A DNA stretch of 64,000 nt from the NCBI RefSeq assembly GCF_900231165.1, contig NZ_LT960614.1, forward strand, positions 3,473,501 to 3,537,500, given 5' to 3'. The notes under the pieces are model-generated. The model made no database searches and was not told the DNA's origin. It was given only the letters and a program-made list of their open reading frames with translations. Source of the DNA: Hartmannibacter diazotrophicus. Its GTDB lineage: Bacteria > Pseudomonadota > Alphaproteobacteria > Rhizobiales > Pleomorphomonadaceae. Positions 5,694 to 19,752 of this stretch are shown piece by piece. A program made the position numbers and the translations under genes. Position 1 is the first letter of the stretch. The number at the start of each line of letters is the position of its first letter.

Positions 5694-6311
5694 ATGGATG
5701 ACCGTTTCAAATATCGGGGTGACCGCGAGGCCTACAGTGCGGCCCGGGTGCGCGCCCTGGAGGCGCTCCTGATCAAAAAGGGCATCATCACCGACAAGTC
5801 CGTGAACACCGTGCTCGACTTCTTCGAAACGAAGATGGGCCCCTTCAACGGCGCCAAGATCGTCGTACGGGCATGGCTCGACCCGACCTTCAAGGACCGC
5901 CTCGTCGCCGATACGCCCAAGGCCATCGCGGAACTCGACCTGCCGGACGGCATGGCGGGCGCCGAGGGCGAGCACATGCGCGCGGTGGCGAACGCGCCCG
6001 GCATTCACAACCTCATCATCTGCACGCTCTGCTCCTGCTATCCCTGGCCCGTTCTGGGTCTGCCGCCCTACTGGTACAAGGACCCGACTTTCCGCAGCCG
6101 CGCCGCCCGCGAACCCCGCGCCGTTCTTGCTGAATTCGGCCTGCCGATCTCCGAGGACATCGAAGTGAAGGTCTGGGACTCCAGCGCCCAGATCCGCTGG
6201 TTCGTCATCCCGGAGCGGCCCGAAGGCACCGAAGGCCTGTCGGAGAGCGAACTGGAGGCGCTGGTCACGCCCGAGGCGATGATGGGCGTCGCCGTCGCCA
6301 AGGCAGCGTGA
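5694..6311 (+). CDS. nthA: Nitrile hydratase alpha subunit, cobalt type
   Basis: This is the catalytic subunit that holds the low-spin metal in a claw of modified cysteines. The metal site is C-T-L-C-S-C followed by YPWPVLG, with Cys110, Cys113, Ser114 and Cys115. Thr after the first cysteine and Tyr after the last are the marks of cobalt enzymes; iron enzymes have Ser and Thr there. Downstream blocks YKDPTFRSRAAREPRAVL and the conserved strand ending IRWFVIPERP match the family. The 205-residue length is normal. It is 24 bases after nthB and 3 bases before the accessory gene. Confidence 0.95.
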   Translation: MDDRFKYRGDREAYSAARVRALEALLIKKGIITDKSVNTVLDFFETKMGPFNGAKIVVRAWLDPTFKDRLVADTPKAIAELDLPDGMAGAEGEHMRAVANAPGIHNLIICTLCSCYPWPVLGLPPYWYKDPTFRSRAAREPRAVLAEFGLPISEDIEVKVWDSSAQIRWFVIPERPEGTEGLSESELEALVTPEAMMGVAVAKAA

Positions 6312-6314
6312 ACC

Positions 6315-6650
6315 ATGTCCATGCTCACGCAGTTCGAGCATTTCGCCGTCACCGAGATGCTCGGCGACCCCGACAGCCCGCCTCGGGCGAACGGAACCCT
6401 GTGCTTCGGGTCCGATTGGGAGCGTTCGTCCTTCGGGATGGCTCTCGCCTTGGCGAAGGACGGGTTCTTCGAGTGGGACGACTTCCGCGACGAACTGATC
6501 GCCTCGATCAGGGAATGGGAAGAGGCCCATCCGGACGACCATTCGTCCTGGAACTACTACGACCAGTTCCTGAGCGCCCTTGAACGCGCGGTCGTCAAAT
6601 GCGGCCTCGTCGACCCGGCAGAACTTCCCGCTTTCCCGGCTCTCGCCTGA
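6315..6650 (+). CDS. Nitrile hydratase accessory protein (beta-subunit-like, P14K/NhlE type)
   Basis: The 111-residue protein resembles the N-terminal half of NHase beta and matches the small activator proteins that shuttle the metallated alpha subunit into the enzyme. The block NGTLCFGSDWERSSFGMALA, then FEWDDFRDELIASIREWE, is characteristic of the accessory family. It begins 3 bases after the alpha gene, indicating tight co-translation. Cobalt-type systems use such proteins for self-subunit swapping. Here it coexists with a CobW-type GTPase, which is an unusual double set. Confidence 0.88.
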   Translation: MSMLTQFEHFAVTEMLGDPDSPPRANGTLCFGSDWERSSFGMALALAKDGFFEWDDFRDELIASIREWEEAHPDDHSSWNYYDQFLSALERAVVKCGLVDPAELPAFPALA

Positions 6651-6695
6651 CCCGGGCAGCGCTCGCCATTCCCGACAGTTTACGGAGATAAGATC

Positions 6696-7373
6696 ATGCA
6701 CATCGAACCAGGGCTCGTTGACGGAGCCAAGATCGTCCTCAGCTACGCGACGGCCGCGGCCGCCGGCATCCACGCCTTGAAGCTCGGCGTTTCGACCATC
6801 GTCAAACGCGGGCTGGTCTCCTTCGCGGGCCGGACCGCGCTCGCGACAACGCTCGTCTTTTCCTTCTTCGAACTGCTGCCGCACTATCCGGTGGGCGTTT
6901 CCGAAGTGCACCTCATCCTCGGCTCGACGCTGTTCCTGCTCTTCGGCGCCGCGCCGGCAGCCTTCGGCCTAGCGCTGGGCCTGCTCATCCAGGGGCTGTT
7001 CTTTGCCTCCTTCGATCTGCCGCAATACGGCATGAACATGACAACGCTGCTTGTGCCGCTCTTTGCCGTCTCCGCCCTCGCCGACCGGCTGATCGCGCCC
7101 TCGACGCCCTATGTCGACTTGAAATACCGTCAGGCGCTGGCCATTTCGACCGCCTATCAGGCCGGCATTGTTGCATGGGTCGCGTTCTGGGCGTTCTATG
7201 GTCAAGGGTTCTCGATCGAAAACCTGGCGGCCGTCGGCAGCTTCGGCGCGGCCTATATGCTGGTCATCGCCATCGAGCCTCTTGCTGACCTCGCCGTGCT
7301 TGCGGCCGCCAAGTCTCTCCGCGGCATTGGCCGGAGCCCGCTGCTCGAAACACGCCTGATCCAGGCGGCCTGA
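6696..7373 (+). CDS. cbiM: CbiM-like cobalt permease, energy-coupling-factor type
   Basis: The protein is an inner-membrane permease of 225 residues with about six hydrophobic segments. It starts Met-His-Ile (MHIEPGLVDGAK); in CbiM/NikM the N-terminal Met-His forms the metal-binding site, so this start (ATG 6696, with ACGGAGAT upstream) is well supported. A block GSTLFLLFGAAPAAFGLALG is also typical. No CbiN, CbiQ or CbiO gene is adjacent, so it either borrows an ECF module from elsewhere or works alone. Its place as last gene of a Co-type nitrile hydratase operon indicates cobalt supply, the role that NhlF plays in Rhodococcus. Confidence 0.85.
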   Translation: MHIEPGLVDGAKIVLSYATAAAAGIHALKLGVSTIVKRGLVSFAGRTALATTLVFSFFELLPHYPVGVSEVHLILGSTLFLLFGAAPAAFGLALGLLIQGLFFASFDLPQYGMNMTTLLVPLFAVSALADRLIAPSTPYVDLKYRQALAISTAYQAGIVAWVAFWAFYGQGFSIENLAAVGSFGAAYMLVIAIEPLADLAVLAAAKSLRGIGRSPLLETRLIQAA

Positions 7374-7396
7374 CGTCCGCCCGGCACCACCGAAAA

Positions 7397-7430
7397 CCAC
7401 CTGCCGGCCTGTGTAATGGCCGGCAGGTGG
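7397..7430. terminator. Perfect 13-bp stem-loop after cbiM
   Basis: CCACCTGCCGGCC (7397-7409) pairs perfectly with GGCCGGCAGGTGG (7418-7430) across an 8-base loop. There is no T-run on the right side, but AAAA lies just left of the stem. It lies 24 bases after the cbiM stop and 57 bases before the GlxA-type regulator start. It is probably a transcript end or attenuator; a regulator-binding palindrome is the alternative. Confidence 0.6.
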
Positions 7431-7486
7431 CAAAGCGCTGTTCTCACGGTAAGTCCAATCTGTCTCAGGCTTTGAAGGGAGGTCCC

Positions 7487-8527
7487 ATGCGCATTGTGAT
7501 CCTTGCTCCGCCGGGCGTTCAGTCACTCGACATCGTAGGGCCGGCAGAGGTTTTCTGGGAAGCTGCCCGCCGTCTCGGCGACATGAGCAAATACGACATC
7601 CAGATCATGTCGACCGGTGCCGCATCCATCGGCGGCACCGGGCAGCTGCGCTTTCTGGCCGACCGGACGATCTTCGATCCCGACGAGCCGATCGACACGC
7701 TGCTCGTCGCCGGCGATCCCTCCTTTCAGGAGGTCGATCAGGAGGTCATCGACTGGCTGCGGCGCAGGGTTCCCACCGTCAGGCGATACGGCTCGATCTG
7801 CACCGGGGTGTTCCTGCTCGCCGCCGCCGGCCTCCTCGATGGCAAGCGGATCACGACGCACTGGGAATGCGCCCCGAAATTCAGCAAGGACTTTCCGCAT
7901 ATCCAGCTCGACGCCGACGCCATCTTCCTGCGGGATGGCGCCTTGATCACAGCGGCCGGCGTCACGGCTGGCATCGATCTCGCCCTCTCGCTGGTCGAGG
8001 AAGACTATGGCCGGGAGGTGGCCCTCATCGTGGCGCGCTACATGGTCATGTTCATGAAGCGGCCGGGCGGCCAGTCGCAGTTCAGCGCACATCTCGTTGG
8101 CCAGATGTCCGAGACGACCCTGATTCAGAAGGCCCAGGAATACATCCTCTCCCATCTCGGCAGTTCGCTGGCGATCGATACGATCGCCCAGCAGGTCGGC
8201 ATGAGCACGCGCAACTTCGGACGCGTGTTTCGCCAGGAACTCGGGATCACGCCGGTGGACTTCATCGCTGCGGCAAGGACGGACGCGGCGCGGCGGTTGC
8301 TGGAGGACACGAACCAGCCATTGCAGCGGATCGCGACGTCCTGCGGCTTCGGCGACGTCAGCGCCATGCGCCGCGCCTTCGCCAAGACGATTGGCGTCAG
8401 CCCTAACGAATATCGTCTGCGGTTTCAGAACAACCAGACGGGGGGACGAAGCCGAACCCTGCCGCCTGTCCTTGCCATGCAGACGGCCCTGAAGGCGATG
8501 GCCCACGCAGAATCCGGCCCGGCCTGA
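7487..8527 (+). CDS. GlxA family transcriptional regulator (DJ-1/PfpI-like domain plus AraC HTH)
   Basis: Residues 1-170 form a DJ-1/PfpI amidase-like sensor domain; the nucleophile-elbow cysteine lies in YGSICTGVFLLAAAGLLDG. Residues 215-320 form an AraC-type double helix-turn-helix, with AIDTIAQQVGMSTRNFGRVF and the C-terminal block CGFGDVSAMRRAFAKTIG. The ATG at 7487 follows a strong site (GGGAGG, 4 bases upstream) and gives 346 residues. An in-frame ATG at 7427 is less likely. Position right after the nitrile hydratase operon makes it a candidate activator of that operon, but this is inference. Confidence 0.9.
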   Translation: MRIVILAPPGVQSLDIVGPAEVFWEAARRLGDMSKYDIQIMSTGAASIGGTGQLRFLADRTIFDPDEPIDTLLVAGDPSFQEVDQEVIDWLRRRVPTVRRYGSICTGVFLLAAAGLLDGKRITTHWECAPKFSKDFPHIQLDADAIFLRDGALITAAGVTAGIDLALSLVEEDYGREVALIVARYMVMFMKRPGGQSQFSAHLVGQMSETTLIQKAQEYILSHLGSSLAIDTIAQQVGMSTRNFGRVFRQELGITPVDFIAAARTDAARRLLEDTNQPLQRIATSCGFGDVSAMRRAFAKTIGVSPNEYRLRFQNNQTGGRSRTLPPVLAMQTALKAMAHAESGPA

Positions 8528-8707
8528 CCGGCCCCGTGCCGGTGTCGTGCGCGACCGGCCGAAGGTCCGATATCAGTCCCTTTTCCTGCGGGGGTCTTTG
8601 ACGACCCTCAATGCCGAAGCGCCTGGACCATGCCTCAATGACCCTGTTCACGAGCGATCTTTCTTCGATTGCCCGTGTGAACCTGAGGGAAGACGGAGGA
8701 GGGTCCG

Positions 8708-8940
8708 ATGGCGCGCGTATCGACGCAGGACATCAGGCGAGTGTGCGGCGCACTGCCCGAGCGCAAAATCCAGGAAATCCTCGAGTGCGACGCCGAACTC
8801 GAGGAACTGGAAGAAGCCGTGGCCTGGGCCTCGGGCGACAACGAACATACCCCGTGCGCCATTTGCCTCCTGCGAGCGCGGCCGCGAAAATCTACGATAT
8901 TCTTGTCGCCGACGAAGAGGAATTCGGTGACGAGCCTTAA
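8708..8940 (+). pseudogene. Small hypothetical gene with apparent frameshift
   Basis: A strong ribosome site (GGAGGAGGG) precedes ATG 8708. The first 50 or so codons read MARVSTQDIRRVCGALPERK and continue into an acidic helical region ending AWASGDNEHT. The natural-looking C-terminus, AAAKIYDILVADEEEFGDEP, is in the next frame and ends at the TAA at 8938-8940. As written, the first frame continues into unrelated sequence to 8953. A one-base deletion (or two-base insertion) near 8860-8885 would explain the split. The intact protein would be a roughly 77-residue acidic cytosolic protein of unknown function. Sequencing error is possible. Confidence 0.55.
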
Positions 8941-8987
8941 TGCGGTTCGGTGACGGGTGGCCGTGCTGCGATGGGATTGTCATCCCG

Positions 8988-10097
8988 ATGGACCTTGCCA
9001 CGATCATGCACGAACAATCGGAAAAACGGCCCCGCGCCCGCGATCTTGGCCTGCCGCTGCAGGGAACGCCGGGGGCCGACAACGCCATCACGGACGTGCC
9101 GGGCCTCACGGTGGGCATGACGACGCTGAAGGACGAAGGTCAGGGCATTCATACCGGCGTCACCGCCATCCTGCCTCGCCCGTCGGCCGATCTGCTCCAC
9201 CCCTGCTGGGCCGGAAGCTTTTCCATGAACGGCAACGGCGAGATGACCGGCGTTCACTGGATCCGGGAGGCCGGATGGATGACCGGCCCCGTCACTATCA
9301 CCAACACCTTTTCCATCGGGATCGCCCACCACGCGAGCGCGCGATGGATGGCACGGCGTTTCCCTGATGTCGTCGGCGAGGACGTCTGGGTGCTGCCCGT
9401 CGCTGCCGAGACTTATGACGGCTATCTGAGCGACATCGCCGGCTTCCACGTCACTGAGGATCACGTGCTCGCTGCCATCGACAACGCCGCAGGAGGACCG
9501 GTTCCCGAGGGCTCGGTCGGCGGCGGCACGGGCATGATCGCCTACGAGTTCAAGGGCGGCACCGGCACATCGTCGCGGGAGGTCACCATCGGTGGTGAGA
9601 CCTACACCCTCGGCTGCCTCGTTCAGGCCAACCACGGCCTCCGCCCCTGGCTGACCGTCTGCGGCAAGCCGGTCGGCGAGCAGATGGCGGAAAACCGCAT
9701 CTACGAGGCCGAGCGTGGCTCCATCATCGTGGTACTGGCGACCGACGCCCCGCTGCTGCCGACCCAGCTCGACCGCCTCGCCCGCCGCGCCTCCATCGGC
9801 ATCGGCCGTGGCGGCACACCGTCCGGCAACAACTCCGGCGACATCTTCCTCGCCGTCTCCACCGCGAACGATCCAGGCCCCCTGCCCGAGCCTCCAAGGT
9901 TCAAGCTGGACGCCCTCTCCAACGACCGTCTCGACCCGATGTTCATGGGCGTCGTCGATTGCGTCGAGGAAGCCGTTCTCAATGCGATGCTCGCCGCAAC
10001 ACCGGTCACCGGGCGCAAGGGACGCTTCGTTCCGGCCCTTGACACCGACAGGCTGATGGCGGCGATGGGAATGGCGCCGTCAGGCCATAAAACGTGA
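8988..10097 (+). CDS. P1 family peptidase (DmpA/BapA-type aminopeptidase)
   Basis: This enzyme belongs to the Ntn-hydrolase-like P1 family (L-aminopeptidase D-Ala-esterase/amidase, beta-peptidyl aminopeptidases), which matures by self-cleavage. The cleavage/nucleophile site is GNNSGDIFLAVST, with Ser283 as the predicted new N-terminus. The family opening block NAITDVPGLTVGMTTL and the GSVGGGTGMIAYEFKGGTGT block are present. The start is uncertain: ATG 8940 overlaps the preceding stop, ATG 8988 or ATG 9006 also fit; 8988 gives 369 residues, normal for the family. In principle it could cleave beta-peptide or isopeptide-like bonds. It sits 0.7 kb before the poly(amino acid) synthetase locus, but no link is shown. 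Confidence 0.88.
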   Translation: MDLATIMHEQSEKRPRARDLGLPLQGTPGADNAITDVPGLTVGMTTLKDEGQGIHTGVTAILPRPSADLLHPCWAGSFSMNGNGEMTGVHWIREAGWMTGPVTITNTFSIGIAHHASARWMARRFPDVVGEDVWVLPVAAETYDGYLSDIAGFHVTEDHVLAAIDNAAGGPVPEGSVGGGTGMIAYEFKGGTGTSSREVTIGGETYTLGCLVQANHGLRPWLTVCGKPVGEQMAENRIYEAERGSIIVVLATDAPLLPTQLDRLARRASIGIGRGGTPSGNNSGDIFLAVSTANDPGPLPEPPRFKLDALSNDRLDPMFMGVVDCVEEAVLNAMLAATPVTGRKGRFVPALDTDRLMAAMGMAPSGHKT

Positions 10098-10790
10098 ACA
10101 GAGCGGACAGGGAGGCAACGCGCCGAAGCTCCGGTGCGGGACCGTGCTGCGGAGAACCCGATTGTGGATTGAAATCAGGTACTAAGGACAGAAAGCAAGG
10201 CGAATATATTCACGAAAATTCATTGATGGCCATCAATGCAAACTCCCAAGACATCACAGATATTTAAACGTTTATTTGATTATAAATACTTACAATTTTC
10301 TAACATTACAGAAAAACTTATTGATTAAATGGCCTTTTGTTGGTAAGTCTTTCACGGGGGAGGCAATCGATCCTTTCATTATAGAGTAGAGGGCCACGAC
10401 GGTCTGTTGGGCGAGTTTGTCCGGCGCGTCGGGGAAAGGCTCTGTTGGAGCCGGTTCTGGGCCCGTTTCACTCCGAAATCGCTTTTCAATCGGCAGACTG
10501 GATCGTGCCGAACAGTCATCATTCGTAAAAACAGAACTGCTCCGATGGAGTTTTCGGACATCGCGCGATGATGCGGTGAACGATGCCCGGAGCAATACGC
10601 ATCCGTCCGATCATCCGATCCATTGCGGGAAGAAGGCACGGATTTTGGTGTGGGTATAAGAGCGCGAGTAGACTTCGCGCCGTACGCCATGAAGGCGCCT
10701 CATCAAATGTACGCGTAATGAGTCCGGCACCTCTGTGGCTGCGGCGCGCAACAAGAATGCCCGTATCGGCATCAATCCTGGAGCGCGGCG
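10098..10790. other. AT-rich intergenic region before the Pls-type cassette
   Basis: About 690 bases with no supported gene. The part 10180-10350 is much richer in A and T than anything near it, including runs such as TTTAAACGTTTATTTG, while 10360-10780 is closer to average. Short open frames here show no recognisable family. The composition break may mark a promoter region or the edge of acquired DNA. Confidence 0.5.
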
Positions 10791-12182
10791 ATGTTCAGAA
10801 ACGCAGATCAGCAAAGTCGACAAGACAGCAAAAGCATATTCACGAGGCGCGAGTCCGGCGTGCGTTCATACGCCCGCACGTTTCCCGCCATCTTTACGCG
10901 CGCCGTCGGCACCGAGATTTGGGACGGCGACGGCCGCCGGTATCTCGACTTTCTGGCCGGGGCGGGATCGCTCAATTACGGCCACAACGATCCGCCCTTG
11001 AAGGAGGCGTTGCTCTCCTATGTCGAGGGCGACGGGATCGCCCACAGCCTCGACCTCCACACCAGCGCCAAGCAACGGTTTCTCGAGACATTCGACAGCA
11101 CGATCCTGCGACCCGAAGGGCTCGACTACGTCGTTCAGTTTACCGGGCCGACGGGCACGAATGCCATCGAGGCGGCCCTGAAACTCGTCCGCAAGTTCAC
11201 CGGTCGCACGAATGTCATCGGATTTACCAACGGCTTTCATGGCGTGACCATGGGGGCCCTCTCGCTGACGACCAATCCGCATTTCCGCAATGCGTCCGGA
11301 TTGCCGGCCCAGGGGGCCACGTCCCTGCCCTACGACGGCTATTTCGGCCCCGGCGTGGATACCATGGACTATATCGAACGGTTGGTCGGCTCGCCATGCA
11401 GCGGGATCGACAAGCCCGCGGCCTTCTTCGTCGAGACGATCCAGGGCGAGGGCGGCCTGACGGCAGCCGGCATCGGCTGGCTGCAGCGTCTGGCAGCCTT
11501 CTGCCGCAGTCAGGAGATCCTGCTGGTCGTCGACGATATCCAGGCCGGATGCGGCCGCTCCGGGCGCTTCTTCAGTTTTACCGAAGCAGGCATCACGCCC
11601 GATATCGTGACGCTCTCGAAGTCTCTCTCCGGGCTCGGTCTTCCGCTTGCCGTCGTGCTCATGAAGCGGGAATGCGACATCTGGAAGCCCGGCGAACACA
11701 ACGGCACCTTTCGCGGCAACAATCACGCCTTCGTCACCGCCACCGCCGCGCTCAATCAGTACTGGAGCGACGGGCGCTTCGCCTCGGAGATCATGGAGAA
11801 GGCATCGCATCTGGACGAGCGCCTGCATGAGATCGCCGGCAAATATCCGCAAGCCATGCCGCAAGTGCGTGGCCGGGGCATGATGAAGGGCCTCTTGTTC
11901 GCCGAGCCGGACGAAGCGGCCGCCGTTTGCGCGCTCGCCTACCGCGAGGGTCTCATCATCGAGCGTTCCGGCCCCCGCGACGAGGTCGTCAAGTTCCTCA
12001 TGCCGCTCAACACGCCGCCGGAGCAGCTTGACGAAGGCCTGGACATCATCGGCTGGGCCGTCGACACCGTGATCGGCTCGCCGGGGGGCCGCACAACGGC
12101 AAGGCGTGCCAGAAAGAGCCCCGTTCGGCCGAGACCGACGCCGCTTCATGTCGCCCACACCAGTCGCGCGACACGTCACTGA
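10791..12182 (+). CDS. Diaminobutyrate--2-oxoglutarate aminotransferase (EctB/Dat-like)
   Basis: This class III PLP enzyme is predicted to convert aspartate semialdehyde plus glutamate into L-2,4-diaminobutyrate. The PLP lysine is Lys277 in TLSKSLSGLGLPLAVVL, and the preceding LLVVDDIQAGCGRSGRFFSF block is close to EctB. GPTGTNAIEAALKLVRKFTG and TNGFHGVTMGALS are also EctB-like. No ectA or ectC is nearby, so ectoine synthesis is unlikely. The next two genes are a Pls-type synthetase and its PPTase, so the product is probably the monomer. The C-terminus has an unusual tail of about 35 residues rich in Arg, Thr and Pro beyond the normal end. Confidence 0.88.
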   Translation: MFRNADQQSRQDSKSIFTRRESGVRSYARTFPAIFTRAVGTEIWDGDGRRYLDFLAGAGSLNYGHNDPPLKEALLSYVEGDGIAHSLDLHTSAKQRFLETFDSTILRPEGLDYVVQFTGPTGTNAIEAALKLVRKFTGRTNVIGFTNGFHGVTMGALSLTTNPHFRNASGLPAQGATSLPYDGYFGPGVDTMDYIERLVGSPCSGIDKPAAFFVETIQGEGGLTAAGIGWLQRLAAFCRSQEILLVVDDIQAGCGRSGRFFSFTEAGITPDIVTLSKSLSGLGLPLAVVLMKRECDIWKPGEHNGTFRGNNHAFVTATAALNQYWSDGRFASEIMEKASHLDERLHEIAGKYPQAMPQVRGRGMMKGLLFAEPDEAAAVCALAYREGLIIERSGPRDEVVKFLMPLNTPPEQLDEGLDIIGWAVDTVIGSPGGRTTARRARKSPVRPRPTPLHVAHTSRATRH

Positions 12183-12326
12183 AAAAAGAAAAACAATCGG
12201 CTGACAGCCCGGGCGGTCACGGCCGCGGGCAACGCTTCCAAAGAAGGCTGTCGTGCAGCCGGTCCCGGGTCCCGATCCGGGGCTGGCCGCATGACCCCTT
12301 GTGCGTGGAGCGGGAGGGGCAGGTCC

Positions 12327-15300
12327 ATGTTCGCAGGCAAAATTCAGGATTCCAGGATTCGCTGGACGGCCGGGGAACGGCTCGATCACCTTTGGGAAGA
12401 CCAGTGCGACCGCATCGAAGCCCTCGGCACCAACCGGTATCCGGCGGTAATCGACGACAGCGCGAGCCACGGCTATCGCGATCTGGACGATCTCGCCAAC
12501 CGAATGGCCCGGCATTTCGCCAGCCGCGGAATTCGGCAGGCCGACCGGGTCGCCCTGCTTCTGGACCGTTCGATCGAGGCCTATGCATCGATCCTGGCGG
12601 TCCTGAAGCTCAATGCCGCCTATGTCCCGCTCGATCCGGTATTTCCCGACGACCGCATCGACTTCATCTTGCAGGACGCCGGTGCGAGCGCCGTGGTGAC
12701 CTTCGCCAGACATGCGGACCGGCTGTCGCGCATTTCGCAGCGCCTGATCGTGCTCGACCGTGAGCGTACGGCCATCGCGCAATGCTCGCCGGCCCGCATC
12801 GCTGCCGGGGACCGCGAAGCGCCGACCGACGAACTGGCGTATATCATCTATACGTCCGGCACGACGGGCCGGCCCAAGGGCGTGGCGATCGAGCATTCGA
12901 GCATCTGCAATTTCGTTCGCGTCGCGGCCGAGACCTACGGTATGAGGCCGGGCGACCGCGTTTATCAGGGCCTGACCCTCGCCTTCGATTTCTCGGTGGA
13001 AGAGATCTGGGTATCCCTGTTCTCGGGCGCGACGCTGGTGCCTGCCCCTGCGTGCAGCAACCTCGTCGGCGAGGACCTCGGTACCTTTCTCCAAGACCAG
13101 CGGATCAGCGTCCTCTGCTGCGTGCCGACCCTGCTTGCGACGATCGAGCAGGATTTGCCGGACCTGCGCATCCTGCTGGTCTCCGGCGAAGCCTGTCCGC
13201 AGGAATTGGTCCGGCGCTGGCACAGCCCGTCCAGGACCATTCTGAATGCCTACGGTCCGACCGAAGCCACCGTGACCGCCACGCTCACCGAACTCCATCC
13301 CGGCAGGCCTGTGACGATCGGCCGTCCGCTTCCAAGCTATACCATCGTCATTCTGGCCGAAGACCGGCCGGAACTGGTGCCCGCGGGTGACGTCGGTGAA
13401 ATCGGAATTGCCGGGATCGGCCTCGCACGCGGTTACCTGAACCGGGACGATCTGACGGCCGCCAAGTTCGTTCCCGATTTCGCGAGCCTTCCCTCCAATC
13501 CCTCGCACCGCATCTACAGGACGGGGGATCTCGGCCGCTACAACGACGCCGGCGAGATCGAATACCTTGGCCGCAAGGACACGCAGGTCAAGATCCGCGG
13601 ATACCGCATCGAGCTCGGTGAAATCGAGGCCGTCCTGCTCGCCGTCCCGCAGGTATCCCAGGCCACCGTCGGCACGTTCGCAACCGAAGCCGGCGAGGTC
13701 GAACTCGTCGCCTACTATGTGATCAGGTCAGGCCTTGAGGAGGTAAGCGCCGCCGAAATCAGGGCGCAACTGCGCGAGCGGCTGCCCGCCTACATGGTGC
13801 CCGCCTATTACGAGCGCCTGCCGACCATTCCCATGACATCCGCCAGCAAGGTGGATCGCAGGAGCCTTCCCGTCCCCTCCGGCCCCCGATCACTGGGGGA
13901 GACGGAATACAAGGCGCCAAGAACCTCTATGGAACGGGAGCTGGCGACACGAATGGCCGACATCCTGAAGCTGCCGCATATCTCGATTTCCGACAATTTC
14001 TTCGACGATCTCGGCGGCCATTCCCTGCTGATGGCGAGATTTTGCACCGTCGCCCGGCGCATTCGCGGCGCGGAAAGCCTGTCGATGCGCGAGATCTACG
14101 AGCACCCGACCATCGAGCGGCTGGCGACCCATCTGGCGGACAGCGATGCATCGGAAAAGGTCATCGTCCCTTCTATCGAGCACCATGTTCCGAGCCGCCT
14201 GCAATACTGCACATGCGGTGCGCTGCAACTCGCCACGCTCCTTGCTCTCGGGTGCGGCACGGTGGCGCTTGTCCTGGAAGGCGCGGAATGGGTTCATGAG
14301 GCGAAGGGCGACCAGCGGACGCTCTATGTGCGAACAGAGTTGCTTCTCCTCGCGGTTCTCTGGACCGGGGCGCTGTTTCCGATCGCCGCCAAGTGGCTCC
14401 TTGTCGGTCGGTGGACACCGTCCAGCATCCCGGTCTGGAGCTGGCGCTACTTCCGCTTCTGGCTCGTCAAGTTGCTGATGCGGGCCTCTCCGATGAACCT
14501 TTATCGCGGCACGCCGCTCTATAATCTCTATCTTCGGCTTCTCGGCGCCCGCATCGGCAGGAACAGCGTCATCCAGAGCCCGGCGCCGGTCTGCACCGAC
14601 CTCTTCTGCGTCGGTGACGACACCTTCGTGCGCCGCGACACCCTGCTGCCCGGCTACTACGCGGAAGGCAACATCATCCACATCGGATCGATCCGGATCG
14701 GCAGCAACGCCTACGTCGGCTCGGCCTGCGTCATCGAGCCGGATACCCGGATGGGCGACCGATCGCAGCTCGGGCACTCGTCCTGCCTTGGCCGCGGCCA
14801 GGAAATCCCCGCCGGCAAGCGCTTTCACGGAACGCCCGCCATCGAGACGGAAACGACCTACTGCCCGCTTGAGGGACGGCAATGCTCGGCGTTCCGGCGC
14901 TGGGCCTACACAGCGCTGACCAGCGGCCTGCAGGTGTTCGTCGTTCTTCCGCTGATCGTCGGCGTGAGTTTCAGTTTCGCCGAGGCCGGCTATGAACACG
15001 CGACGATGGGACACGGAACCGCCCCCCTGCCCTGGTCGGACATCTTCGATCCTGCGCCGTCGATCGCGGCAACGGCGGCGCTGATCTTCGCGTCGGTCAT
15101 GATCTTCCAGTTTGCGTCTGTTGCACTCGTCCCGCGGATTGCCCGGCATCTTCTGGAAGAAGGCCGCGAATATCCCCTGTTTGGCTGGCACTACTTCGTG
15201 CACAGGGTCGTGGAGGTCGCCAGCAACTCCCGGTTTCTCAACACCGTCTTCGGCGACAGCTCCTTTATCGTCCACTACCTGAGGCTTGTCGGCTATCGCC

Positions 15301-16427
15301 TCAATAAGGTGCATCAGACCGGCTCCAATTTCGGCCTCGAACAGCGCCACGAGGAGCCGTTCCTCTGCAGCGTCGGCCATCGCGCCATGGTCTCGGACGG
15401 TCTCACTGCGGCGAACGCCGAATTCTCCAGCTCATCGTTTCGGCTGCGGCCGGTTCACATTGGCGAGCGGAGCTATCTCGGCAACCGGATCTTCTTTCCC
15501 GCCGCCAGCCGGACCGGCGCCAATCTTCTCATTGCAACCAAGGCCATGGTCCCGATCGACGGCAAGCTGCGGGAGAACACCGGGCTCTTGGGCTCGCCCT
15601 GTTTCGAGATACCCCGCATTGTCGATCGGGACCGGCAGGCGAGCCCGTCGGCTGGTGAAGTCGACCCGAAGCTCCTGCACAAGAAGAACAAGGCCAACCT
15701 GACGACAATGGCGCTCTATCTGATGGCGCAATGGCTGGTCGGGTTCCTCCTGTTCTTTCTCATGACCGCCGTCGTGCTGCACTATCCCGATCACATTCCT
15801 CTGGTGGAGGCCGCGATGCTGCCGGTCATGCTCGCCGTGCACGCCACCTTCTGGCTGGTGACCGAGCGCGCGAGCCTCGGTTTCGGCCGGCTGCAATCGC
15901 GCACGGTGGGTCTTTACGACGACTATTTCCTGTTCCACGAGCGGCACTGGAAATTCTGCGCCCATCCCTTCGCGCAGGCGCTCGCGGGCACCCCGTTCAA
16001 GAATGTGATTTCCAGGCTGCTTGGCGTCCGGATCGGCAAGATGGTCTTCGACGACGGCGCCAATCTTTTCGACAAGACGTTGCTGACGATCGGCGACCTG
16101 ACCAATCTCAATGCCGGCTGCATCCTGCAGGCTCATTCCCTTGAGGAGGGCCTTTTCAAGTCCGACCAGGTCCGGATCGGCAGCAACTGCACTATCGCCT
16201 CCTCGGCCTTCGTGCACTACGGCGTCTCGATGGGCGACGGCACCATGCTGGGGCCGAACGCCTTCCTGATGAAGGGAGAACAGCCCGATCCCGGCAGCAT
16301 CTGGATCGGCAATCCGGCAAGAGTGGTCAACGCAGCAAACGCGGCCAGGGCGGAGACCGCACAGCCTCCGGCACCCGAGGAAGCGCCATCCGCGCCCTCT
16401 CTTGTGCCTCACGAAAGGGCGGCGTGA
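12327..16427 (+). CDS. Pls/PosA-type single-module membrane NRPS (cationic homopoly-amino-acid synthetase)
   Basis: The product is a 1366-residue integral membrane NRPS with the layout of epsilon-poly-lysine synthetase. An adenylation domain fills residues 1-510: A3 loop YTSGTTGRPKG from Tyr175, A5 NAYGPTE at 307-313, A7 YRTGDLGRY from 397, A10 Lys508. The carrier domain has GGHSL with Ser566 as phosphopantetheine site. Then come three pairs of transmembrane segments (about 630-695, 862-940, 1122-1185), each followed by a soluble hexapeptide-repeat domain (about 738-838, 989-1098, 1232-1335). There is no normal condensation or thioesterase domain. ATG 12327 is chosen for GGGAGGGGCAGG just upstream; ATG 12291 is an alternative. 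The upstream aminotransferase suggests diaminobutyrate as substrate. Confidence 0.92.
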   Translation: MFAGKIQDSRIRWTAGERLDHLWEDQCDRIEALGTNRYPAVIDDSASHGYRDLDDLANRMARHFASRGIRQADRVALLLDRSIEAYASILAVLKLNAAYVPLDPVFPDDRIDFILQDAGASAVVTFARHADRLSRISQRLIVLDRERTAIAQCSPARIAAGDREAPTDELAYIIYTSGTTGRPKGVAIEHSSICNFVRVAAETYGMRPGDRVYQGLTLAFDFSVEEIWVSLFSGATLVPAPACSNLVGEDLGTFLQDQRISVLCCVPTLLATIEQDLPDLRILLVSGEACPQELVRRWHSPSRTILNAYGPTEATVTATLTELHPGRPVTIGRPLPSYTIVILAEDRPELVPAGDVGEIGIAGIGLARGYLNRDDLTAAKFVPDFASLPSNPSHRIYRTGDLGRYNDAGEIEYLGRKDTQVKIRGYRIELGEIEAVLLAVPQVSQATVGTFATEAGEVELVAYYVIRSGLEEVSAAEIRAQLRERLPAYMVPAYYERLPTIPMTSASKVDRRSLPVPSGPRSLGETEYKAPRTSMERELATRMADILKLPHISISDNFFDDLGGHSLLMARFCTVARRIRGAESLSMREIYEHPTIERLATHLADSDASEKVIVPSIEHHVPSRLQYCTCGALQLATLLALGCGTVALVLEGAEWVHEAKGDQRTLYVRTELLLLAVLWTGALFPIAAKWLLVGRWTPSSIPVWSWRYFRFWLVKLLMRASPMNLYRGTPLYNLYLRLLGARIGRNSVIQSPAPVCTDLFCVGDDTFVRRDTLLPGYYAEGNIIHIGSIRIGSNAYVGSACVIEPDTRMGDRSQLGHSSCLGRGQEIPAGKRFHGTPAIETETTYCPLEGRQCSAFRRWAYTALTSGLQVFVVLPLIVGVSFSFAEAGYEHATMGHGTAPLPWSDIFDPAPSIAATAALIFASVMIFQFASVALVPRIARHLLEEGREYPLFGWHYFVHRVVEVASNSRFLNTVFGDSSFIVHYLRLVGYRLNKVHQTGSNFGLEQRHEEPFLCSVGHRAMVSDGLTAANAEFSSSSFRLRPVHIGERSYLGNRIFFPAASRTGANLLIATKAMVPIDGKLRENTGLLGSPCFEIPRIVDRDRQASPSAGEVDPKLLHKKNKANLTTMALYLMAQWLVGFLLFFLMTAVVLHYPDHIPLVEAAMLPVMLAVHATFWLVTERASLGFGRLQSRTVGLYDDYFLFHERHWKFCAHPFAQALAGTPFKNVISRLLGVRIGKMVFDDGANLFDKTLLTIGDLTNLNAGCILQAHSLEEGLFKSDQVRIGSNCTIASSAFVHYGVSMGDGTMLGPNAFLMKGEQPDPGSIWIGNPARVVNAANAARAETAQPPAPEEAPSAPSLVPHERAA

Positions 16428-17132
16428 TTGAACGACATTCCATCCGTCGCCCGCATCCTCCACCCCTTTGACGGCGTCGAGGTCTTGACGCTGGCCGTCG
16501 ACGACGCCTTCGAGATGACGAGAGGCGCGACTATCTTGAGCGAGCAGGAAAAGTGCCGCCTCGCCCGGATACGGCATGGCGCGACGCGCCGCCGGTATGC
16601 CGCCGCACATTGCCTGTTGCGCCAGGCGCTGACGCGCTACGCCGAAGGCGCGCTCAGGCCCGAGGAATGGCGTTTCGTCTTCGGAGCGCATGGCAAGCCG
16701 GCGGTCGCGCCGGGTCTGCCCGAAATCCGGTTCAACCTTTCGTTCGCCGACGACTGCATTGCGATGTCCCTCACGCGGTCGCGCGAGATCGGGATCGATA
16801 TCGAGCCGATGCCCGGCGACATCGACGAACCGATGCCCTTCGGTATATCGCCCCGGGAAGAAGCGCTTCTTCGCCGGTTGCCGGTCGACGCCCGGGCGCG
16901 CCAGATCGCCAGGGTCTGGACATTCAAGGAGGCAATCGCCAAGGCAATCGGTTGCGGCATCGACGACAGGTTCACGCAGATCGACGCCTGCCCGGTGCTG
17001 CTGACAGCAAGATCGGATTATTGGGCCACTGTGGATGGCGAGACATTCGATGTGCGCCTCGCTGACGTTCAGTTCCGCGGCAAGACCTACTTCATGGCCG
17101 TCGCCGTTGGACCTGTTGCCGCCAGTGGCTGA
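16428..17132 (+). CDS. Sfp-type 4'-phosphopantetheinyl transferase
   Basis: This enzyme would load the phosphopantetheine arm from CoA onto Ser566 of the adjacent synthetase. Sfp-family motifs are visible: GKPAV, the strand IGIDIEPM with the Mg-binding Asp and Glu, and WTFKEAIAKAIGCGI. In the FNLSxx motif the usual His is replaced (FNLSFADD), which is a small departure. The gene starts with TTG directly after the TGA of the synthetase, so the two are translationally coupled. The length of 234 residues is normal. It ends 21 bases before the convergent ROK gene. Confidence 0.9.
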   Translation: MNDIPSVARILHPFDGVEVLTLAVDDAFEMTRGATILSEQEKCRLARIRHGATRRRYAAAHCLLRQALTRYAEGALRPEEWRFVFGAHGKPAVAPGLPEIRFNLSFADDCIAMSLTRSREIGIDIEPMPGDIDEPMPFGISPREEALLRRLPVDARARQIARVWTFKEAIAKAIGCGIDDRFTQIDACPVLLTARSDYWATVDGETFDVRLADVQFRGKTYFMAVAVGPVAASG

Positions 17133-17153: not shown

Positions 17154-18359
17154 TCACTTCGACATCTTCCAGATGGCAGAAAAGCGCGGATCGAAGGTCT
17201 GGCCGATGGGAGCTGCCGCTGCCCCCAGCGCGACCGACCATGGGTCCGTGAGTCCAAGCTGCAATCGTGGCAGTCGTCGGTCCGGTCGATCGGCAATGGA
17301 GGTCAGCAGGGGCTCCATCGCCTTGATCAGGCATTCGCCAAGCGCCTTCGGCGCCCCGCCGCACAGGATCACCGTCTCCGGATCGAACAGCGTCTCGATC
17401 AGATGCACACTCCAGCGAAGATTGGCGGCGGCCTCCTCGACCCAGGACAAGAGCCGGACGTCCCTGTCCATCGCCAGACGGTCGATCGTGTCGCGCAATG
17501 CCGGGTCGGCGGCGTCCAGCGTCAGATGCTGGTAGAGCGAAGCGAGCGAGGCGCGATGTTCCAGCGCCGTATAGCGATCCGGCCCGCCGAGCAGCGCCAT
17601 GCCGATCTCGCCGGCATTGCCGTTGGCGCCGTTGTAGAGTTCGCCGTTGATGATGAGCCCGGCGCCGAGACCGTAGCCGAGATAGAGGCACACCGCATGG
17701 TCGAGACCGTGGGCGGCGCCAACGATCCGCTCGGCGGTCGCGGCGGCGGCGGCATCGTTCTGCAGGCTGACCGCAAGCCCGGTGCCGGCCGAAAGCGTCT
17801 CCAGCAGCGGAAAGGCCTGCCAGGCCGCCATCATCCAGGGATCGTCGCCCTCCTGCTTGAGGCCGAAGGGGCCCGGCATCGCGAGCCCGAGGCCGACGAG
17901 TCGGTCTTCCGATTGCGGAAAAACCAGCTGGAGTTGGCGCCGCGCATTATCGACGAGCGCGAGCACCACCTCCACGCCGGACGACGGGCCGCCAGCCGGC
18001 AGCTTTGCTTCCACATGCACGTGCACGCTGCCGACGAGATCGACAGCAATGGCGCGGGCGAGATGGCGGTCGATCTGGAGACCGATGGCGAAGGCCCCCG
18101 CCGGCACCAGTTCGTAGGGCGTCGATGGCTGCCCCCTGCCCTTGCGTACCACGGCGCCGGAGGCGACGAGCCCGTCCTGCTCCAGTTCCTCGATGATGTT
18201 CGAGACCGTCTGTTTCGTCAGCCGGGTGGCCCGGGCGAGATCCGCGCGCGACAGCGGTCCGTTCAGCCTCAGGGCATCGACGATGACGCGCCGGTTGTGT
18301 GCGCTGGCGCCTTCCTGATTGGTCCCGCTCGTGGCCCGGATCGGGCGAATGTCGTTCAT
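17154..18359 (-). CDS. ROK family transcriptional repressor
   Basis: The N-terminal winged helix-turn-helix (LSRADLARATRLTKQTVSNI, near residues 34-53) is joined to a ROK sugar-kinase-like domain with GLGLAMPGPFG, the glycine-rich LYLGYGLGAGLIINGELYNG and the GEIGMALLG segment. The canonical zinc-binding Cys cluster of ROK proteins is not evident, as often in degenerate repressor forms. ATG 18359 has GAGGT 9 bases upstream; an in-frame ATG at 18401 would overlap the operator. It is divergent from a sugar ABC operon and very likely represses it, with a phosphorylated or free sugar as inducer. Confidence 0.9.
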   Translation of the reverse strand: MNDIRPIRATSGTNQEGASAHNRRVIVDALRLNGPLSRADLARATRLTKQTVSNIIEELEQDGLVASGAVVRKGRGQPSTPYELVPAGAFAIGLQIDRHLARAIAVDLVGSVHVHVEAKLPAGGPSSGVEVVLALVDNARRQLQLVFPQSEDRLVGLGLAMPGPFGLKQEGDDPWMMAAWQAFPLLETLSAGTGLAVSLQNDAAAAATAERIVGAAHGLDHAVCLYLGYGLGAGLIINGELYNGANGNAGEIGMALLGGPDRYTALEHRASLASLYQHLTLDAADPALRDTIDRLAMDRDVRLLSWVEEAAANLRWSVHLIETLFDPETVILCGGAPKALGECLIKAMEPLLTSIADRPDRRLPRLQLGLTDPWSVALGAAAAPIGQTFDPRFSAIWKMSK

Positions 18360-18400
18360 CCGCTGATTACCTCTTGACTCATCCGGATTATTGGCCACCA

Positions 18401-18427
18401 TATTAAGTCAAAACAATTGACTTAATA
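18401..18427. promoter_or_regulatory. Perfect 11-bp-arm operator between ROK gene and sugar operon
   Basis: TATTAAGTCAA (18401-18411) and TTGACTTAATA (18417-18427) form a perfect inverted repeat around AACAA. The AT-rich palindrome lies 41 bases upstream of the ROK start and 86 bases upstream of the binding-protein start. It stands out from the GC-rich surroundings and is the natural ROK binding site for both divergent promoters. Confidence 0.8.
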
Positions 18428-18513
18428 AAGAGCCATCAGAGCTCGGGGAATGGGTTGATGCGGAAGTGAACCGCCCAGCCCGAATGTGCAAGGTCCATCA
18501 GTTGGAGGCAGGA

Positions 18514-19752
18514 ATGTCGAAGTCTTTCAGAAATTCGCTTCTCGGCGCCGTGATCATCAGCGCCTCGCTCGTCCCGCATGCCTTCGCGGAGACGACGCTC
18601 AATGCCCTCTTCATGGCCCAGGCGGCCTATAGCGAGGACGACGTCCGCGCGATGACGGAGGCGTTCCAGAAGGCCAATCCGGACATCAAGGTCAATCTGG
18701 AGTTCGTCCCCTATGAGGGCCTGCACGACAAGACCGTTCTGGCGCAGGGCTCCGGCGGCGGCTACGACATCGTGCTCTTCGACGTCATCTGGCCGGCGGA
18801 ATACGCCGAGAACAAGGTTCTCGTCGACGTCTCGTCGCGCGTGACCGACGAGATGAAGAAGGGCGTCCTGCCGGGTGCCTGGACGACGGTGGAGTATAAT
18901 GGCGCCTACTACGGCATGCCGTGGATTCTCGACACCAAGTATCTCTTCTACAACAAGAAGATCCTGAAGGAAGCCGGCATCGACGCCCCGCCGAAGACCT
19001 GGGACGAGCTGACGGCCGACGCCAAGATCATCAAGGACAAGGGGCTGCTCGAAACCCCGATCGCGTGGAGCTGGGCGCAGGCGGAAGCCGCCATCTGCGA
19101 CTACACCACCCTCGTCAGCGCCTATGGCGGCGACTTCCTGAAGGACGGCAAGCCCGACTTCCAGAACGGCGGCGGCCTCGATGCGCTGAAATACATGGTC
19201 TCCAGCTACGAGTCCGGCCTCACCAATCCGAACTCCAAGGAGTTCCTGGAAGAGGACGTGCGCAGCGTCTTCCAGAACGGCGAGGCGGCCTTCGCGCTCA
19301 ACTGGACCTACATGTACAACCTCGCCAACGACCCCAAGGAAAGCAAGGTCGCGGGTGATGTCGGTGTCGTCCCTGCGCCGGGCGTTGAAGGCAAGAGCAC
19401 GGTGTCGGCCGTCAACGGCTCCATGGGCCTCGGCATCCCGACGGCCAGCAAGCATCCCGACGAGGCCTGGAAATACATCGTCTACATGACCTCGCAGACG
19501 GTCCAGAACCAGTACGCCAAGCTGAGCCTGCCGATCTGGGCGTCGTCCTATTCCGACCCGGCCGTCACGGCGGGTCAGGAAGAGCTGATCGCGGCCGCCA
19601 AGGAAGGTCTCGCGGCCATGTATCCGCGCCCGACCACCCCGCGCTATCAGGAGCTGTCCGCCGCCCTGCAGCAGGGTATCCAGGAAGCCCTGCTCGGTCA
19701 GGCATCGCCTGAGGATGCCCTCAAGGCAGCCGCCGACAACAGCGGCCTCTGA
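18514..19752 (+). CDS. Sugar ABC transporter substrate-binding protein
   Basis: This is a periplasmic family-1 extracellular solute-binding protein of 412 residues. A Sec signal peptide is visible, with a basic start, a hydrophobic core and a cut after PHAFA. The mature part contains typical blocks YDIVLFDVIWPAEYAENK, YYGMPWILDTKYLFYNKKIL and GEAAFALNWTYMYN. The ATG at 18514 has GGAGGCAGGA right before it; an in-frame ATG at 18466 would spoil the signal peptide. It is the first gene of a ROK-controlled operon. The SIS isomerase and PfkB kinase downstream suggest the ligand is a sugar or an amino-sugar conjugate. Confidence 0.92.
   Translation: MSKSFRNSLLGAVIISASLVPHAFAETTLNALFMAQAAYSEDDVRAMTEAFQKANPDIKVNLEFVPYEGLHDKTVLAQGSGGGYDIVLFDVIWPAEYAENKVLVDVSSRVTDEMKKGVLPGAWTTVEYNGAYYGMPWILDTKYLFYNKKILKEAGIDAPPKTWDELTADAKIIKDKGLLETPIAWSWAQAEAAICDYTTLVSAYGGDFLKDGKPDFQNGGGLDALKYMVSSYESGLTNPNSKEFLEEDVRSVFQNGEAAFALNWTYMYNLANDPKESKVAGDVGVVPAPGVEGKSTVSAVNGSMGLGIPTASKHPDEAWKYIVYMTSQTVQNQYAKLSLPIWASSYSDPAVTAGQEELIAAAKEGLAAMYPRPTTPRYQELSAALQQGIQEALLGQASPEDALKAAADNSGL

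Follow-up and report, generated by a model that had tools for sequence, protein, structure and literature searches.

A three-gene cassette of the alphaproteobacterium Hartmannibacter diazotrophicus probably directs synthesis of a cationic homopolymer with isopeptide bonds, the best candidate being gamma-poly-L-2,4-diaminobutyrate, and would then be a Gram-negative version of the pdd system of actinobacteria. The genes lie head to tail on the + strand at 10791-17132 of a 64,000-nucleotide stretch of contig NZ_LT960614.1 (assembly GCF_900231165.1, contig positions 3,473,501 to 3,537,500; hereafter the window), and all of their open reading frames (ORFs) are far beyond chance. A first-pass annotation of the window had described them as a diaminobutyrate-type aminotransferase with pyridoxal phosphate (PLP) Lys277, a 1366-residue Pls-type nonribosomal peptide synthetase (NRPS) and an Sfp-type 4'-phosphopantetheinyl transferase (PPTase), a description borne out by profiles and motifs. 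The genes, domains, pocket code, linkage and phylogeny of the cassette are direct observations.

The aminotransferase, synthetase and PPTase

The aminotransferase gene (10791-12182, + strand; 463 aa) encodes a class III, EctB-type L-2,4-diaminobutyrate--2-oxoglutarate transaminase. The protein scores 605.9 bits against TIGR02407 (EctB; cut-off 552.2), also matches PF00202, and has as its closest relative in the Protein Data Bank (PDB) another diaminobutyrate--2-oxoglutarate transaminase, 6rl5 (E 1e-150). Its PLP lysine, Lys277 in the motif TLSKSLSG, is kept in 38/38 aligned rows. At the C-terminus (12078-12182) there is an Arg-rich tail of about 34 residues beyond the EctB-profile match.

The second gene (12327-16427, + strand) encodes a single-module, NRPS-like synthetase of 1366 aa when the start is taken at 12327; the ORF list begins at an earlier ATG, 12291 (1378 aa). 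Its Pfam layout is AMP-binding, AMP-binding_C, PP-binding and hexapeptide repeats; at E 0.001, Pfam finds neither a condensation nor a thioesterase domain. An adenylation (A) domain at 12429-13850 (PF00501, PF13193) is followed by a carrier (T) domain at 13938-14135 (PF00550), whose attachment residue, Ser566 in DDLGGHS, is identified by its position in the motif and is invariant in ten aligned rows. The remainder is a membrane polymerisation domain (14211-16319). Here the profile TIGR02353 ("Pls/PosA family"), with which the first-pass annotation had suggested a search, matches aa 629-1331 at 633.8 bits (cut-off 423.1), the only match above cut-off in the window genome. Six hydrophobic segments form three pairs (aa 632-650/670-688, 867-885/917-935 and 1132-1150/1160-1178); a weaker one, aa 75-93, falls inside the A domain. 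In a profile built from 24 terminal-domain sequences, the hexapeptide regions at about aa 743-845, 1008-1091 and 1230-1332 match solved left-handed beta-helix proteins, and an AlphaFold2 model of the synthetase (pLDDT 86.9, pTM 0.88) shows, three times over, a pair of long helices and then a beta-helix. Hydropathy, profile and model therefore agree on the three membrane pairs and three hexapeptide domains that had been proposed. Foldseek agrees in part: its top PDB matches are hexapeptide acetyltransferases and designs derived from one, each covering a single region with query-length TM-scores of 0.09-0.16. Models of PosA show the same arrangement of helices and beta-helices (PMC10522769).

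With A and T domains and no canonical condensation or thioesterase domain, the TIGR02353 match, six transmembrane (TM) helices, three beta-helix regions, and D221 and E225 in the A domain, the protein belongs to the Pls/PosA family. Among the invariant residues of the 24 terminal domains are Gln1268, His1270 and Glu1273, kept in 70, 71 and 71 of 75 rows, respectively, and these are candidate catalytic residues. Glu1205 and Lys1316 of the membrane domain are conserved as well.

The third gene (16428-17132, + strand; 234 aa) encodes an Sfp/HetI-type PPTase matching PF01648 at 53.3 bits; the nearest NCBIfam model is HetI, far below its cut-off. It carries the motifs GIDIE (D-x-E) and WxxKEAxxK, which we take to be those of Sfp-type PPTases, and the assignment also draws on recurrence of the gene in related cassettes. 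Its TTG start abuts the TGA stop of the synthetase with no gap and in the same frame (16425-16430). Read-through of that stop would fuse the synthetase to the PPTase.

Adenylation pocket and predicted monomer

The A domain pocket was read by alignment at ten positions, those of the PheA numbering. In the window it is DFECLSAVTK (residues 221, 222, 225, 264, 284, 286, 308, 316, 317 and 508). The procedure was checked on PosA: it reads DMEHNGTVSK from the synthetase gene of Acinetobacter baumannii, the code published for that enzyme (PMC10522769). According to the same source, the synthetases of poly-diaminopropionate (PDAP) and poly-diaminobutyrate (PDAB) have Phe in place of PosA Met218 and conserve Glu221 (PMC10522769). 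Direct alignment to the PosA and Pls structures puts F222 and E225 of the window synthetase at these two diagnostic positions.

The characterised pdd cluster was sought in the family of Amycolatopsis, which we take to be the Pseudonocardiaceae. Searching 390 genomes of that family with the unmutated form of the pddB mutagenesis primer from PMC8225329 gave one genome with an exact 34-base match and one with two mismatches. Both loci hold a synthetase, a frame with the racemase motif MCGNALRC, a DAT-type transaminase for 2,4-diaminobutyrate (Dab) and an aspartate-kinase-like gene, the four gene types of pddA, B, C and D (PMC8225329). We infer that the genome with the exact match is that of Streptoalloteichus hindustanus. 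The pocket of its synthetase is DFECLSCVSK, equal to the window pocket at 8/10 positions. The window synthetase thus resembles PddA in having Phe at pocket position 2, a PddA-like pocket overall, and a Dab transaminase gene in its cluster.

Linkage of ectB to the synthetase gene

The order of the window genome was sampled with 347 genomes. TIGR02353 matches at E 1e-60 occur in 60 of them (58 above cut-off) and EctB matches at E 1e-130 in 41 (38 above cut-off). Both genes occur in 16 genomes and lie on the same contig within about 5 kb in 13 of these; in the other three (G120, G209 and G309) they are apart. Sixty synthetase regions of the order were taken and the pocket was read in 59 and in the window, one further fragment being left aside. 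EctB is adjacent to 13/13 synthetases with a DFExxS pocket and to 0/47 with any other (Fisher p 1.9e-13, a value that overstates independence because the rows of the order are related). This count omits L129, which has no A domain, and a second fragment in G218, and it places L094 and L095, whose A domain is on a separate NRPS, among the 47. The other pockets are DLED (26), DFExxG (9), DAE (4), DGE (3), DME (2), DIW (2) and DYE (1), and 43 of the 47 come from genomes without any EctB match.

Fourteen cassettes were compared: that of the window, 12 of the order and one of Skermanella rosea. EctB and the synthetase are present in 14/14 and the PPTase in 9/14 (eight, including the window, by BLAST clustering, and L092 by HMM). 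The place of the PPTase varies; it is about 4 kb away in L110 and follows EctB, not the synthetase, in L098 and L105. It is absent from the full flanking stretch in L013 and L130 (2/14); its absence in L139 and L140, which end inside the synthetase, and in L127, with 1.1 kb left downstream, says little. Since PPTases also adjoin Pls-like genes with other pockets, the pairing is not special to Dab. On the sense strand, no family besides EctB, the synthetase and the PPTase recurs in more than 3/14 stretches, and one family recurring in three includes an S41 peptidase of Skermanella; in the compared stretches, the cassette had no recurring neighbour for export or resistance. A conserved trio, for which the first-pass annotation had suggested a neighbourhood check, is therefore found in the order for EctB and the synthetase and only in part for the PPTase.

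Outside the order, two plasmid records of Skermanella have ectB directly upstream of the synthetase gene, and the pocket, read in one, is DFECLSVVTK. On these plasmids (L013 and L296), the synthetase is followed in both species by genes for a small hypothetical protein, an S41 peptidase and a porin, a set that possibly has export or envelope functions. In the Amycolatopsis family, synthetase-like proteins at E 1e-250 occur in 36/249 genomes. Of the 37 loci, 31 have a DFExxS pocket, and a Dab transaminase lies in the stretch in 27/31 (26 DAT-type, one EctB-type), as against 0/6 for the other pockets, these six including L290 (an implausible pocket) and L291 (which ends at a contig edge). An aspartate-kinase-like neighbour is present in 22/37. 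Because the racemase motif did not turn up in any of the 37, these loci may be clusters for poly-L-Dab. In Arthrobacter bambusae, genes for an aspartate kinase, a DAT-type transaminase and the synthetase stand in a row. Among the matches listed in a scan of named genome contigs, 5/80 loci were near full length, the list consisting largely of ordinary NRPS adenylation domains.

Several observations weigh against assigning Dab to the window synthetase on these grounds. Overall identity between the pdd-cluster synthetase and that of the window is only 33%, and PDAP, PDAB and poly-beta-lysine synthetases are described as hard to tell apart by alignment (PMC10522769). The association of pocket and linkage is not strict outside the order, as the searched stretch around some DFExxS synthetases is without a Dab transaminase gene: four of the 31 in the Amycolatopsis family (L272, L281, L285 and L286), and those of a Paenarthrobacter plasmid (L017) and of Ornithinimicrobium (L143). 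Nor did a class-level sample of 308 genomes hold a further relative close enough for a fresh check of the pocket rule. There, 8/308 had a synthetase match at E 1e-100 and 23/308 an EctB match at E 1e-120, with both only in the window genome; the other seven synthetase matches are three already-counted genomes of the order and four without a pocket reading. The proposal of the first-pass annotation that the aminotransferase makes Dab and the synthetase polymerises it is nonetheless supported by the pocket match and the linkage, activation and polymerisation being predicted from sequence.

The Paenarthrobacter synthetase lies at 5887-10110 of plasmid pTC1 of Paenarthrobacter aurescens TC1. Its pocket is DFECLSVVTK, the plasmid is typed as conjugative, and the EctB profile has no match on it at E 1e-100.

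EctB phylogeny and the ectoine question

The ectoine pathway (EctABC) has the EctB enzyme family and the Dab intermediate in common with the pathway proposed here; the window differs in having no EctA and its genome in having no EctC. Homologues of EctA and EctC, sought with one query each, both of confirmed identity, are absent from the whole window, to which the EctA search within this genome was confined. A search of the whole window genome for ectC (ectoine synthase) gave none, compared with one in each of the control genomes (4/4). With one query each, EctA and EctC were likewise not found in the stretches of the 14 cassettes. Across the order, 30 of the 50 EctB matches were checked for ectA and ectC, and both stand beside EctB in 14/30 loci. 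Because the genome has no ectC and the window no ectA, an ectoine operon was rejected and ectoine is unlikely to be the purpose of the window EctB, as the first-pass annotation had judged. Genes labelled ectB need not be ectoine genes. In a third setting, represented by L058 and L059 (G209 and G309) and L080 (G044), EctB has neither ectA nor ectC with it, and a neighbour in two of these loci, L058 and L080, weakly resembles the isoleucine dioxygenase family.

In a tree of 38 EctB rows, the 15 synthetase-linked EctBs fall into three groups. The window EctB is in the largest, of nine rows (support 96/97), while a group of two (L222 and L278) branches among ectABC enzymes. A single clade for all synthetase-linked EctBs was rejected (AU test p 7.75e-5; the constraint costs 59.3 log units). 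Explaining the tree takes three changes of setting, and well-supported branches force two of these, with gains and losses indistinguishable. Three EctB clades, together with the DAT-type enzyme in most actinobacterial relatives, suggest that the place of the Dab-making enzyme was taken on more than one occasion.

The tree also bears on whether EctB came to lie beside the synthetase by chance, as the remnant of an ectoine operon. The window aminotransferase passes the EctB equivalog cut-off, the Skermanella genes are annotated ectB, and L222 and L278 group with ectABC enzymes, all of which speak for a remnant. Such a remnant is nevertheless extremely unlikely given adjacency in most genomes holding both genes, a window genome without ectC, and a window EctB placed in a well-supported clade of synthetase-linked enzymes.

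Synthetase phylogeny and possible other monomers

In a terminal-domain tree (75 rows, quick method), the window synthetase is nearest to that of L107, an EctB cassette, with support of 100. Nested among the EctB cassettes (support 93) is a group with DFEALG pockets and no adjacent EctB. Synthetases with the pocket DFEALG[TS]VT[KN] (L012, L014, L015, L016, L081-L086 and L088-L090) probably use another monomer. The actinobacterial L284, with DFEYLGTVTK, is also without a transaminase; its sister L291 is the locus truncated at a contig edge. Pocket change and absence of the Dab gene thus coincide in one group, which has 13 rows, and perhaps also in another case, a coincidence that can be read as a change of monomer.

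This group lends some weight to the idea that the window synthetase itself polymerises a short diamino acid other than Dab, above all L-2,3-diaminopropionate (Dap), its adjacent EctB serving something else. A lineage in the same clade has the pocket DFEALG[TS]VTK and no adjacent EctB, so substrate shifts may well occur there, and Phe at pocket position 2 is common to PDAP and PDAB synthetases (PMC10522769). A Dap polymer is, however, improbable. The window pocket has the Cys4-Leu5-Ser6 of the pdd cluster, not Ala4 and Gly6, and within the order it is this difference that EctB adjacency tracks. The published supply of Dap uses homologues of cysteine synthase and ornithine cyclodeaminase (PMC4668381), and the six window neighbours scanned include no gene of either type.

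For Dab as the monomer, a wider scenario is quite possible and is put forward tentatively. Alphaproteobacteria may hold poly-Dab producer lineages of their own, in which the transaminase slot was filled more than once from the ectoine-type EctB pool (and with DAT-type enzymes in actinobacteria), while the DFEALG branch, found in Shinella, Phyllobacterium, Aureimonas and Rhizobium rhizoryzae, may make a different, not yet named homopolymer.

Predicted pathway and known systems

In the pathway that we propose, the EctB-type enzyme would convert aspartate semialdehyde and glutamate to L-Dab. The PPTase would arm the carrier domain with phosphopantetheine, and the A domain would activate Dab as its adenylate and load it onto Ser566. 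The membrane domain, with its three TM-helix pairs under three beta-helices resembling hexapeptide acyltransferases, would then join the alpha-carboxylate of one Dab to the gamma-amine of another iteratively, and the chain would probably be released at or across the inner membrane. Activation, the isopeptide bond and polymerisation are predicted here by analogy with the characterised relatives Pls, PosA and PddA. We infer the L configuration of the product from a single observation, namely that no racemase is in the cassette.

Dab may also be loaded and joined into something other than a long free homopolymer: the product may be oligomers of a few units, or the membrane domain may attach Dab to an acceptor such as a lipid or glycan. 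By profile, and partly by fold, that domain is similar to hexapeptide O- and N-acetyltransferases, enzymes that pass acyl groups to diverse acceptors. In addition, PosA gives 7-12-mers in vitro (PMC10522769), and recombinant Pls forms glycerol and polyethylene glycol (PEG) esters of its chain (PMC9606270). These outcomes have a small probability, as the enzymes sharing this terminal domain (Pls, PosA and the PDAB and PDAP synthetases) make isopeptide homopolymers (PMC10522769) and the stretches compared around the cassettes show no recurring gene for glycans or lipids.

The system most like the proposed poly-Dab cassette is pddABCD of S. hindustanus, which makes poly-D-Dab (PMC8225329). In both, a Pls-type synthetase lies beside a Dab:2-oxoglutarate transaminase, and the pockets DFECLSCVSK and DFECLSAVTK are alike. 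The transaminase, however, is DAT-type in pddABCD (38% identity to that of the window) and EctB-type in the window. The pdd cluster also has an aspartate kinase and a racemase, neither of which adjoins the window genes, whereas a PPTase adjoins the window genes and none was seen in the pdd loci with the window PPTase as query. No DapF-domain racemase of the pddB type was found among the six neighbouring window genes scanned, and one aspartate kinase query (pddD type) had no match in the window or in the stretches of the 13 other cassettes. Aspartate semialdehyde would have to come from primary metabolism. The first-pass annotation had called the cassette a nearly minimal system; the three genes do adjoin, but without an adjacent aspartate kinase or racemase the set is less complete than that suggests.

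PosA of A. baumannii, which makes delta-poly-L-ornithine, shares with the window synthetase the A-T-membrane domain layout and the Asp and Glu at pocket positions 1 and 3. It differs in having Met rather than Phe at position 2 and H-N-G-T-V-S at positions 4-9, and posA is a single-gene operon (PMC10522769). Pls of Streptomyces albulus, the epsilon-poly-L-lysine synthetase, shares architecture and family, and the structure of its A domain, 7wew, ranks directly after PosA when the pocket region is compared; it differs in its Ala at pocket position 2 and its lysine substrate.

Until PosA was described, actinomycetes were the only source from which cationic isopeptide homopolymers had been identified (PMC10522769). 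That paper already reports Pls homologues in Proteobacteria, including rhizobia, and codes in many genera that match PDAP synthetases, so that a synthetase of this kind is no novelty in itself. In our searches of the open literature, we recognised no description of an EctB-linked cassette of the Pls family in Proteobacteria. The cassette and its relatives place a predicted poly-Dab system in Gram-negative bacteria, in which it becomes testable how a cell of this type can produce and export a polycation unharmed. The three-gene form is small enough for transfer to a laboratory host, and the pocket rule, DFExxS together with a neighbouring Dab transaminase, gives a testable prediction of the monomer.

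Neighbouring DNA and unusual relatives

Upstream of the aminotransferase gene is a 693-bp intergenic stretch (10098-10790), presumed to bear a promoter, with a G+C content of 0.51 (0.284 at 10200-10340). Promoter and terminator scans gave signals no better than shuffles, and no riboswitch or other known RNA in the window matched Rfam at gathering score. Window DNA and one window protein have their best plasmid matches in Paroceanicella, Rhizobium, Sinorhizobium and similar genera, which points to Alphaproteobacteria; a 16S search gave no match in the window genome, while its control was positive in 9/14 genomes. Four neighbours were rejected as parts of the cassette, having no match in the stretches of the 13 other cassettes: the S58 peptidase immediately upstream (8940-10097), an AraC-type regulator (7427-8527), the ROK regulator downstream (17154-18401) and a solute-binding protein (18466-19752).

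Two relatives in the order have an unusual trans arrangement. In L094 (G011:C96, 2410-8306) and L095 (G156:C188, 1585-8138), the Pls/PosA terminal domain is on a protein without an A domain of its own, which adjoins a separate C-A-T or C-A-T-TE synthetase. In L094, four tandem carrier domains precede the terminal domain.

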